Below, piece after piece: positions 40,123 through 61,745 of a DNA stretch of 64,000 nucleotides. Position 1 is the first letter of the stretch. Every line of letters begins with the position of its first letter. The notes under the pieces are model-generated. The model did no database searches. It saw nothing but the letters and a program-made list of their open reading frames with translations, and was not told the DNA's origin. Location: positions 1-64,000 of the forward strand of contig JAKSPB010000014.1 in assembly GCA_024405215.1 (NCBI GenBank). Direction: 5' to 3'. This DNA comes from Lentisphaeria bacterium. Lineage in GTDB: Bacteria > Verrucomicrobiota > Lentisphaeria > Oligosphaerales > Oligosphaeraceae. The translations under genes and the position numbers were made by a program.

Positions 40123-41490
40123 TCATACCCTGGGCAGCTTCGACAGAGATTTCGCGATATCCTCGTCGGCAGGCGTGAAGTCCTGCATGACGCCGTCGTT
40201 GAAGCGCTGGTAGGAGACCATGTCGAAGTATCCCGTGCCGCTGAGACCGAAGACGATGTTCTCCTGGCGGCCTTCGGCTTTGCAGCGCAAGGCCTCCTGG
40301 ATCGCGCCGTAGATGGCGTGTCCGCTTTCCGGCGCGGGGAGGATGCCCTCGGTGCGGGCGAAAGTCCGCGCAGCCTCGAAGACCTTCGTCTGAGGCGCCG
40401 CGATGGCCTCCAGGATGCCGTCCTCATGCAACTGGGAGAGCATGGAATTCATGCCGTGGTAGCGCAGACCGCCGGCATGAATGGGAGCAGGCATGTATCC
40501 CGCGCCCAGGGTATACATCTTCGCCAGCGGACAGACTTTCCCCGTGTCGCAGTAGTCGTAGGCGTATTTGCCGCGAGTCAGCGAAGGGCATCCCACGGGT
40601 TCCACTGCCAGGAAGCGGCACTTCAACTTGCCGCGCAGCACGTCCCCCACGAAAGGTCCGCTGAGGCCGCCCAGATTGGAACCACCGCCGGCGCAGCCGA
40701 TGATCACGTCGGGACTCTCGCCTAATTTCTCCAAGGCGGCCTTCGTTTCCAGACCGATCACGCTCTGATGGAGCATCACCAGCGACAGCACCGACCCCAG
40801 CACATAGCGGTAGCCCGGCGTATTCACCGCCGCCTCCACCGCCTCGGAAATCGCACAGCCCAGGCTGCCGGCCGTTCCGGGATTCTCCTCCAGAATGCGA
40901 CGACCGACGGCAGTCTCCGTGGAAGGCGATGGCGTCACGGACGCGCCGTAGGTCCGCATGACATCCCGGCGGTGAGGTTTCTGCTCGTATGAGCACTTCA
41001 CCATGAAGACCTTGCAGTCCAGTTTGAAGAACGCGCACGCCATGGCCATCGCGGTACCCCACTGTCCGGCACCGGTCTCCGTAGTCACGCCGGTCAGCCC
41101 TTGCTGCTTGGCGTAGAACGCTTGCGGCACGGCGGAGTTCAGCTTGTGGCTGCCAGAAGTGTTGTTTCCCTCGAACTTGTAGTAGATATGGGCGGGCGTC
41201 CCAAGCGCCTGCTCCAGGAAGTACGCCCGGACAAGCGGCGAAGGACGGAACATCTTGTAGACATCGTAGACAGGCTGGGGAATGGGAATGTACTCGTTTG
41301 TCTCGTCAAATTCCTGCCGCGCCAGCTCCTCGCAGAAAATCCTGGAGAGTTCCTGCATGGTGACGGGCTGACGGGTTTCGGGATTCAGCAACGGCGCGGG
41401 CTTGACCGGCATCAGCGGTTTCAGATTGAACCACGCTTTCGGCAGTTCGTTCTCGGAAAGATAGGTCTTGTAGGGAATGTCAGTATTCAT
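40123..41490 (-). CDS. Tryptophan synthase beta chain, TrpB2 type
   Basis: PLP enzyme joining indole and serine to make tryptophan. The 455-residue length, the N-terminal extension before RPSPLVRAYFLEQAL, and KFEGNNTSGSHKLNSAVPQAFY (PLP lysine in SHK, near residue 115) mark the TrpB2/TrpB-like group, which is longer than TrpB1 and often not paired with TrpA. Other sites are ETGAGQWG near 141, the phosphate-binding GCAGGGSNLGG near 248 and GLSGTGYFD near the end. Start 41490 is supported by AGGAG eight bases upstream. No trpA or other trp gene is in the window. Expression should be controlled by the leader-peptide attenuator at 41532-41744. A longer open frame exists upstream but runs across the terminators and is rejected. 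Confidence 0.92.
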   Translation of the reverse strand: MNTDIPYKTYLSENELPKAWFNLKPLMPVKPAPLLNPETRQPVTMQELSRIFCEELARQEFDETNEYIPIPQPVYDVYKMFRPSPLVRAYFLEQALGTPAHIYYKFEGNNTSGSHKLNSAVPQAFYAKQQGLTGVTTETGAGQWGTAMAMACAFFKLDCKVFMVKCSYEQKPHRRDVMRTYGASVTPSPSTETAVGRRILEENPGTAGSLGCAISEAVEAAVNTPGYRYVLGSVLSLVMLHQSVIGLETKAALEKLGESPDVIIGCAGGGSNLGGLSGPFVGDVLRGKLKCRFLAVEPVGCPSLTRGKYAYDYCDTGKVCPLAKMYTLGAGYMPAPIHAGGLRYHGMNSMLSQLHEDGILEAIAAPQTKVFEAARTFARTEGILPAPESGHAIYGAIQEALRCKAEGRQENIVFGLSGTGYFDMVSYQRFNDGVMQDFTPADEDIAKSLSKLPRV

Positions 41491-41531
41491 AATGGTTGCT
41501 CCTGAGTGAAATTCTTTGGAAAATAGGAAAT

Positions 41532-41580
41532 AAAAAAGGCCGTCGCGGCGGCTCATCTTGCTTTCTCCGTCCCGACGGCT
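41532..41580 (-). terminator. Second (promoter-distal) terminator in trpB2 leader
   Basis: On the minus strand GCCGTCG (5' arm, inside 41580-41567) pairs with CGACGGC (3' arm, near 41545-41539), extended inward by a further three pairs after mismatches, with a U6 run (41537-41532). It ends 41 bases before the trpB2 start codon. The loop-side GACGGAG of its 5' arm is complementary to CTCCGTC of the leader-peptide message, so it might be linked to the same switch. Confidence 0.75.
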
Positions 41581-41597
41581 TTGTATGTCTGCGCAAT

Positions 41598-41635
41598 AAA
41601 AAAAGCGGTTTGAGCTGCCAACCAGTTCAAACCGC
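41598..41635 (-). terminator. trp attenuator terminator (3:4 hairpin)
   Basis: On the minus strand GCGGTTTGA (41635-41627) and TCAAACCGC (41613-41605) form a perfect 9-base stem with a 13-base loop, followed by U7 (41604-41598). It lies downstream of the Trp-rich leader peptide and overlaps the alternative pairing partner at 41632-41641, so terminator and antiterminator exclude each other. Confidence 0.9.
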
Positions 41636-41712
41636 CACGACTTGATCCCTGTTCCTGTTCCCGTGATCAATGCGCGCAAACGCCGGTCGTGACGGAGCAT
41701 CGCCACCACCAA
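41632..41712 (-). promoter_or_regulatory. Alternative RNA pairings of the trp attenuator
   Basis: Three segments can pair in exclusive ways on the minus-strand RNA. Segment 1 is TTGGTGGTG (41712-41704, the Trp codons). Segment 2 is CCGTCACGACCGG (41695-41683). Segment 3 is GTCGTGGCGG (41641-41632). Segment 1 pairs with CACGACCGG of segment 2 over 9 positions with one mismatch and two wobbles. CCGTCACGAC of segment 2 pairs with segment 3 over 10 positions with one wobble, and this takes four bases of the terminator 5' arm. A ribosome stalled at Trp codons blocks segment 1 and favours the 2:3 antiterminator. Confidence 0.75.
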
Positions 41713-41744
41713 TAGTCAACGGGATTGTGAGAAAGGATATACAT
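41667..41744 (-). CDS. trpL: trp leader peptide (25 residues, three consecutive Trp)
   Basis: The ORF starts at ATG 41744 and stops at TGA 41669-41667. It begins MYILSHNPVDYWWWRC; residues 12-14 are three Trp codons in a row (41711-41703), highly improbable by chance in a 25-codon ORF directly before a trpB-type gene. A promoter lies just upstream (41773-41800) and an intrinsic terminator just downstream (41598-41635). The role is cis-acting: translation speed through the Trp codons senses charged tRNA-Trp and decides whether trpB2 is transcribed. The ribosome binding site is only moderate (GGAAAAACAGCAG before ATG). The symbol is used by analogy with classical trp leaders. Confidence 0.85.
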   Translation of the reverse strand: MYILSHNPVDYWWWRCSVTTGVCAH

Positions 41745-41772
41745 CTGCTGTTTTTCCAAGAGATTTGCTGAA

Positions 41773-41800
41773 AATATAAGCGGTGATTTTCTTTTTGCAA
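41773..41800 (-). promoter_or_regulatory. Putative promoter of trpL-trpB2
   Basis: On the minus strand TTGCAA (41800-41795), 16-base spacer, TATATT (41778-41773). Transcription would start near 41765, about 20 bases before the leader peptide ATG. Confidence 0.65.
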
Positions 41801-58376: not shown

Positions 58377-59000
58377 TCAAAAAAGTACTGGCTGGGCCAC
58401 TGGCCCGAAGGAACGCCGATGGATGGGACAGGGCCCCAGTTTCGCCAACGCAGCCAAATGCTCGGCCGTGCCGTAGCCCATGTTCCTAGCAAAACCATAC
58501 CCGGGATAACGACGGTCCATCTCTTCCATCAGATGGTCCCGATAGGTCTTCGCCAAAATGCTGGCAGCGGCAATGGAAGCGGACTGGGCGTCGCCTTTGA
58601 CTACGAATTGCACCGGCAACGGAAACGGCTTGAAGCCCAGGCCGTCCACCAGAACCATCTGCGGCGCAGGATCTCCCAGGGAAATCGCCGCCTCTCGCAT
58701 GGCATCCTGCGTTGCACGCAGGATGTTCACCCGATCAATCTCCTCCGGGGAACGCTCTACAATCACATAGCGGACCCGCGAATCCGCCTTCAAGGCTGCA
58801 GCCAGCTCGTCGCGACGCTTAGCAGTCAGCTTCTTGGAATCGTTCACCGGAAGGGAAAACTCCTCCGGCGGCAACGGAAGCATCACCGCCGCCACCACAA
58901 CCGGCCCGGCCAACGGCCCGCGACCGACCTCGTCTACTCCGGCCACACGCTCCACCCCAAACGATGTCTCTAAACGAAATGGCTCCGCAATGCCCGACAT
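58377..59000 (-). CDS. rnhB: Ribonuclease HII
   Basis: Removes RNA from RNA-DNA hybrids and misincorporated ribonucleotides. The active-site motif GVDEVGRGPLAGPVVVAAV has Asp23 and Glu24. Further blocks are NDSKKLTAKRRDEL near 54, VDGLGFKP with the third Asp near 119, and KGDAQSASIAAASILAKTYRD near 134-154. The 207-residue length is canonical. It lies downstream of rplS in the usual trmD-rplS-rnhB order, though separated by a terminator and a dispersed element. Confidence 0.95.
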   Translation of the reverse strand: MSGIAEPFRLETSFGVERVAGVDEVGRGPLAGPVVVAAVMLPLPPEEFSLPVNDSKKLTAKRRDELAAALKADSRVRYVIVERSPEEIDRVNILRATQDAMREAAISLGDPAPQMVLVDGLGFKPFPLPVQFVVKGDAQSASIAAASILAKTYRDHLMEEMDRRYPGYGFARNMGYGTAEHLAALAKLGPCPIHRRSFGPVAQPVLF

Positions 59001-61145: not shown

Positions 61146-61498
61146 TAATTTCCTAAACTAGGGATTCTATGGGTATGGTAACAAAAAATCGCTTTTACGA
61201 CGTGGTAAACGCGGTAATATATCCCCTTTTTCCAGTACCGCAACCCCGTCCCGAAAATCCAAGACACTTCCGGACAGAAAAGAGCCTAGGAGCCCAGGAG
61301 CCTAATTGTGCCTTCAGCCGGGTGATTTCCGCGGCCAAGGCATTGATTTTCTTTTTTTTGCTCCAGGACGACTCCATTCCGATTCCATCGTAGCAGCAAG
61401 CGTGCAGCGGTCGTTCTTTCGCGGATCCCGCCGTTTTGCACAAATCCTCGTCCCGTCTTCGCCAAGTGCACCATCATCCGGTCGCCCAGCACATCGTA
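61146..61498. other. Region upstream of rpsP; possible gene remnant
   Basis: These 353 bases should hold the rpsP promoter (AT-rich 61150-61220, minus strand). The rest, 61195-61492, carries two overlapping minus-strand frames that could be one decayed gene joined by a frameshift at an A8 run near 61355. The downstream half reads like a short leucine-zipper piece (INALAAEITRLKAQLG). No family was recognised, and it is not called as a gene. Confidence 0.25.
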
Positions 61499-61540
61499 AA
61501 AAAAAGCTGCCTTGGAACCATGATCGATTCCGCAGCAGCC
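61499..61540 (-). terminator. Intrinsic terminator of ferredoxin gene
   Basis: On the minus strand GCTGC...GGAA pairs with TTCC...GCAGC (arms near 61532-61536 and 61506-61510), followed by U7 (61505-61499), about 32 bases after the ferredoxin stop. Confidence 0.7.
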
Positions 61541-61571
61541 GCTTCTTGCTTAATATGACCGTCAGCCGATC

Positions 61572-61745
61572 TTAGTCAACGGTGATGGCCTCGACGGGGC
61601 ATCCACCGGCGCAAGCGCCGCAGGAGACGCACGCAGCCTCGTCCACAGCAGCCTTGTCGCCATTCAGCTTGATGGCACCGACGGGGCAGGTGCCCTCGCA
61701 GGCACCGCAACCCATGCACTTCTCGACATCAACTTTAGCAGCCAT
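61572..61745 (-). CDS. Small 2[4Fe-4S] ferredoxin
   Basis: A 57-residue ORF starts at ATG 61745 with a strong GGAGG site. Two cluster motifs are clear: [11 protein letters not shown] followed by P (Cys at 10, 13, 16, 20) and [11 protein letters not shown] followed by P (Cys at 39, 42, 45, 49). This is the clostridial-type bacterial ferredoxin, a cytoplasmic low-potential electron carrier for hydrogenases or pyruvate:ferredoxin oxidoreductase. Its presence suggests anaerobic metabolism. It has its own terminator, and the aminotransferase gene ends 110 bases upstream. Confidence 0.95.

Follow-up and report, generated by a model that had tools for sequence, protein, structure and literature searches.

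Organization of the trpB2 locus

The window, the whole 64,000-nucleotide stretch of the Lentisphaeria bacterium contig analyzed here, carries on its minus strand trpB2, the product of which scores above the cut-offs of both NF009057 (654 bits; cut-off 366) and TIGR01415 (572; cut-off 519) and finds its best solved-structure matches in 6hul, 4qys and 6hte, all three deposited under the name of tryptophan synthase beta chain. The gene is monocistronic, being followed by a plus-strand pilin-like gene and then by nadB, with no further minus-strand gene between trpB2 and nadB; the first-pass annotation of this DNA had called it an isolated gene of the TrpB2 type, and both parts of that description hold. 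TrpB2 proteins approximately 70% identical to this one are common in gut Clostridia (L075-L154), an identity level that suggests gene exchange between gut bacteria.

The region upstream of trpB2 contains a leader whose features are collected in Table 1. Codons 12-14 of its short open reading frame are all UGG, giving three Trp codons in succession; the frame encloses segment 2 and is preceded by a weak GGA located about 13 bases from the ATG. The promoter-like pair is, taken alone, a weak match. The stem of the first terminator, T1 (GCGGUUUGA..UCAAACCGC), spans 41635-41605 and is followed by the U7 tract at 41604-41598; its calculated energy is -18.8 kcal/mol (z -5.1), and none of 200 shuffles was equally good. 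Segment 2 (41695-41686) can pair with segment 3 (41641-41632) at 10 of 10 positions, one of them a G-U pair. Segment 1 resembles segment 3 and can therefore also pair with segment 2, forming a 1:2 hairpin (-15.6 kcal/mol, z -3.1) that holds Trp codons 2 and 3 in its 5' arm. Both terminator hairpins precede the trpB2 ribosome binding site. An ATG in the loop of the second terminator, T2 (41556-41554, minus strand), shares the reading frame of trpB2 and would lengthen the protein by 22 residues, but it is probably not the start codon, since the proteins of relatives begin near 41490.

Table 1. Features of the trpB2 leader and gene in the window.
Feature	Position	Strand	Basis
Promoter-like pair TTGCAA-16-TATATT	41773..41800	-	sole consensus-scan match in region, 9/12; shuffled expectation 0.5
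Leader peptide ORF, 25 codons, MYILSHNPVDYWWWRCSVTTGVCAH and stop	41667..41744	-	read from sequence
Segment 1 (Trp codons 2 and 3 and next Arg codon)	41700..41714	-	1:2 hairpin energy, 1:2 covariation
Segment 2 (CUCCGUCACGAC)	41686..41697	-	pairs with segment 3 and with T2 5' arm
Segment 3 (GUCGUGGCGG)	41632..41641	-	overlaps T1 5' arm; 2:3 covariation, own-versus-swapped test
Terminator T1 (3:4 hairpin and U7)	41598..41635	-	folding energy, covariation
T2 5' arm and loop (GUCGGGACGGAG), second site complementary to segment 2	41565..41576	-	11/12 positions pair
Terminator T2 (GCCGUCG..CGACGGC hairpin and U6)	41532..41579	-	-19.6 kcal/mol, z -2.0
trpB2, TrpB-like PLP enzyme, 455 aa, regulated gene	40123..41490	-	profile scores, structure matches

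The promoter-like pair, the leader ORF, T1 and the 1:2 and 2:3 pairings all lie on the minus strand where the first-pass annotation had placed them. Its terminator at 41635-41598 stands as well, but its picture of a single-terminator leader does not, T2 at 41579-41532 having been overlooked. An Rfam scan of the whole window (cmscan, gathering thresholds) returned tRNA only, with no T-box and no known amino acid leader. Plain folding of the whole leader gave an unremarkable stability (z -1.6), so this energy was discarded as evidence for the element, for which we rely on conservation instead.

Conservation and covariation of the leader

Trp-rich leaders occur at the corresponding place in relatives. 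Among related TrpB2 genes of Lentisphaeria and Kiritimatiellae, 37 of 65 upstream regions contain a Trp leader with a terminator behind it, as against 2 of 75 control TrpB2 upstream regions, mostly from clostridial genomes, and 0 of 31 from TrpB2 genes of the phylum that are less closely related. Dinucleotide-type shuffling of the 430 upstream bases produced the combination of a Trp-pair leader and a subsequent terminator in 0 of 300 cases. L178, a locus from a genome of the window's class, shares its leader with L147 of Lentisphaeria bacterium UBA1776, which identifies the class as Lentisphaeria. Several TrpB2 genes of the class lack a Trp leader (e.g., L008, L037). Outside the class, Trp leaders with hairpins of quite different sequence precede TrpB2 genes in L031 and in L078, the latter from Kiritimatiellae. 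Joint horizontal transfer of switch and gene was considered and rejected, because the clostridial TrpB2 genes of ~70% identity are devoid of the leader.

The three mutually exclusive helices were assessed against shuffles in an alignment of 26 diverse leaders. For the 2:3 helix, 77.2% of cells are paired versus 71.2 in shuffled alignments, with a covariation score of 0.310 versus 0.225 (0/500); the 3:4 helix is paired in 95.3% of cells and shows changes on both sides in 30 cells versus 9.3, and the 1:2 helix is paired in 84.6% of cells, with a covariation score of 0.314 versus 0.231. When segment 2 of each genome was matched against its own or a swapped T1 arm, the own arm fitted better (0/5000). 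The U-tract of T1 is present in nearly all leaders, and the part of T1 that covaries with segment 2 is its 5' arm. Leaders that otherwise differ have in common a U-rich stretch behind segment 2 (alignment A2, columns 36-50; for example UUGUUUGCG or UUGUGCUG), which may be a polymerase pause site.

A covariance model (R2) trained on 13 sequences, all of them from two other families of the class, f6 and f7, and none from the family of the window, finds the window element with an E-value of 3.3e-10, the next best match in the window standing at 0.0018. Two further model matches, at 58838-58897 and 61497-61617 (minus), fall in apparent coding sequence and at an unrelated terminator; neither has a Trp leader, and both were rejected. 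The first-pass annotation had read the locus as a leader-peptide trp attenuator and put forward a covariation search in related genomes as a check; these genomes keep the Trp codons and the exclusive pairings, and all three helices covary, in support of that reading.

Folding of partial transcripts and the proposed switch

Equilibrium folding of the complete leader was discarded as a test of switching, as T1 wins in nearly every state, reaching 0.90 even when the ribosome is stalled; the mechanism would thus require kinetic capture of segment 3. Switching was therefore assessed on partial transcripts, before segment 4 is made, with E. coli trpL as control. The T1 arm was paired to segment 2 at 0.58 in the stalled state and at 0 both in free RNA and with a ribosome at the stop codon, while the same procedure gave 0.66 stalled, 0.03 free and 0.29 at the stop codon for E. 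coli trpL. For the T2 arm, the corresponding values were 0.52 stalled, 0.52 free and 0 with the ribosome at the stop codon.

The element thus brings together the sequence-level features of a trp attenuator: a Trp-codon ORF, an intrinsic terminator, an exclusive and covarying 2:3 pairing, a 1:2 hairpin and a Trp-synthesis gene downstream. Judged from these features, it is very probably a ribosome-mediated, trpL-type Trp attenuator acting at T1. We infer a course of events in which the polymerase would transcribe the leader with a ribosome following. With ample charged tRNA-Trp, the ribosome would clear the three Trp codons and cover segment 2, so that the 3:4 hairpin forms and transcription stops at T1. 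With Trp-tRNA scarce, it would stall on the Trp codons and mask segment 1, leaving segment 2 to capture segment 3; T1 could then not form, and trpB2 would be transcribed. Where no ribosome is present, the 1:2 hairpin would form and T1 would terminate.

A second terminator matching segment 2

A second terminator lies at most 45 bases from the first in 45 of the 111 leaders detected. T2 arms fit the segment 2 of their own genome better than swapped ones (21.3 vs. 17.0; 17 clusters; 0/5000), and T2 3' arms, used as a control, show no such advantage. A mild own-versus-swapped excess (40/5000) also appears in a control region taken from further upstream than the leader, so part of the signal stems from relatedness. 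Many trpE leaders divide segment 2 between the two terminators, its first half matching T1 and its second half T2.

These matches suggest a second gate at T2: with the polymerase beyond T1, segment 2 would let go of segment 3, pair with the T2 arm instead and thereby open T2. That one ribosome-controlled segment opens two successive gates in this way is, in our assessment, an evenly balanced proposition. The pairing of the T2 arm in the stalled state and its absence with the ribosome at the stop codon speak for it, and the equal pairing in free RNA speaks against it. Attenuation might instead take place at T1 only, with T2 as a plain backup or decayed duplicate whose complementarity to segment 2 simply follows from terminator arms being repeated, a possible reading that we nonetheless find rather doubtful. 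It agrees with the leaders of L003 and L175, which keep a second segment-2 complement with no clear terminator, with the trpE leader of the window's own genome, where T2 and T3 share a stem and look like a duplication, and with the own-versus-swapped test for trpE T2, which is not significant under very strict clustering (406/5000, 4 clusters). On the other hand, the fit between T2 arms and the segment 2 belonging to them holds for two different genes and across many clusters and is not seen for T2 3' arms, and the letters involved differ by group (CCAGGGCUGGAU with AUCCGGACCUGG, GGCCGGGU with ACCCGGCC, GCACUCCGG with UCGGAGUGU); moreover, a strong unregulated T2 would block expression even under starvation.

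Control of translation or of Rho-dependent termination by the Trp leader, instead of or besides intrinsic termination, is improbable. The complement retained in L003 and L175 without a U-tract would suit it, but nearly all leaders have the T1 U-tract, the 5' arm of T1 covaries with segment 2, and the trpB2 ribosome binding site is situated beyond both hairpins. The chance juxtaposition of a small Trp-codon ORF and an unrelated terminator can be dismissed. The abundance of short ORFs, the weak promoter match and the ordinary whole-leader folding (z -1.6) would suit it, but the 0/300 shuffles, the control genes, the covariation and the independent model contradict it, and the fact that different genera and families conserve the element refutes it.

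Trp attenuators elsewhere in the genome and the class

The same genome encodes a full trpEGDCFBA operon on another contig (C35), in which trpC, trpB1 and trpA were identified by searches and trpE, trpG, trpD and trpF by size, order and reading. This operon is preceded by its own Trp leader (MQKLANISLNRWWLWR) and by a terminator like the one before trpB2, so Trp attenuation is not peculiar to trpB2 and can be seen as a general habit of the organism. The trpEGDCFBA leader (L074:11940-12190, minus) has three terminators, the second and third sharing the stem GCCGCATCC/GGATGCGGC.

A model search in the class located the element across Lentisphaeria before trpE, trpB2, stand-alone trpB1 and trpBA. 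L311, L312, L313, L316, L324 and L328 have this Trp attenuator in front of a TrpB1-type gene that stands alone. In L274, L266 and L241, apparently two complete Trp attenuators, each leader with its terminator, stand in series before trpE. Terminators of the same type also accompany leaders of other composition: a Phe-rich leader (MKTKRHIFTANSFFGFFLFWRSFRCDRRLCV) in L325, before an apparent DAHP synthase-prephenate dehydratase fusion gene, is a candidate Phe attenuator, and a Leu-rich leader (MTMMLDNFLLLLLLR) in L317 precedes an apparent helix-turn-helix/cupin regulator gene. In L319 and L320, a terminator and segment 2 like those of trpE leaders, with an ORF lacking Trp codons, precede genes of unknown function and are probably decayed or re-used copies.

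The leader in genomes lacking a detectable Trp pathway

This TrpB2 is present in 54 genomes of the class, and trpE was not detected at the threshold used in 24 of them. In 21 of the 54, which are draft genomes, trpE, trpC (IGPS) and trpA were all undetectable; completeness is 94 to 97% in several of these (G014, G022, G034, G141, G076). A Trp leader and terminator precede trpB2 in 18 of these 21 genomes, and two of the three exceptions (G370 and G321) are cut off by the contig end. The retention of both elements ahead of trpB2 in such genomes makes indole salvage the probable process under the control of the switch. The genomes without detectable trpA likewise support the view that TrpB2 may make Trp from indole independently of TrpA, and we infer that the stand-alone enzyme would combine indole with a serine donor to form Trp when Trp is short. 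The salvage role offered by the first-pass annotation gains support from these 21 genomes.

Discussion

The trpB2 leader resembles E. coli trpL in its Trp-codon peptide, its 1:2, 2:3 and 3:4 pairings, its U-tract terminator and a similar calculated pairing pattern; the cmscan of the window at gathering thresholds, which reported tRNA only, revealed no sequence kinship to it. Unlike E. coli trpL, the Lentisphaeria element has a monocistronic trpB2 downstream, a segment 2 located inside the ORF and a second terminator matching segment 2. Trp attenuators have been predicted in Actinobacteria, one of them before trpB2A of Corynebacterium diphtheriae (PMC1262725); in the parts of that report available to us, this operon shares with the Lentisphaeria locus a Trp leader with terminator and a first gene called trpB2, but carries trpA too, belongs to another phylum and comes with no mention of a second terminator.

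More than one attenuating element per leader is also known from the tandem attenuators of Salmonella mgtCBR, where two ORFs respond to two signals, ATP and proline (PMC3641672). Unlike in mgtCBR (PMC3641672), the two terminators of the trpB2 leader appear to be served by a single Trp ORF and a single segment 2; full tandem Trp attenuators seem to occur before trpE of some relatives. As for the enzyme, the stand-alone TrpB2 of Thermococcus kodakarensis, for which indole salvage has been reported (cited in PMC11085991), is likewise a TrpB-type enzyme beside a normal TrpB1-TrpA pair. Unlike it, the TrpB2 of the window sits under a Trp attenuator, and its salvage role is a predicted one.

A literature search with most subscription journals outside its reach returned no earlier report of Trp attenuation in Lentisphaeria, and a search of the same reach returned nothing on one segment serving two terminators or on leader-peptide tandem terminators; since few subscription journals were covered, novelty is not proven. 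The regulator is of a known kind, occurring in a class for which that search gave no earlier report, and its two-terminator form is unusual. There is perhaps an even chance that the two-gate attenuator is widespread in Lentisphaeria and used even where only an indole-salvaging TrpB2 remains for Trp formation.

These results extend classical Trp attenuation to Lentisphaeria, before a full trp operon and isolated TrpB genes alike. The two-terminator form poses the question of how one antiterminator can serve consecutive terminators, an arrangement that might, for instance, serve to reduce leakage. In relatives without the Trp pathway, the presence of the attenuator before trpB2 predicts a response to Trp hunger that would consist in scavenging indole from other gut bacteria.
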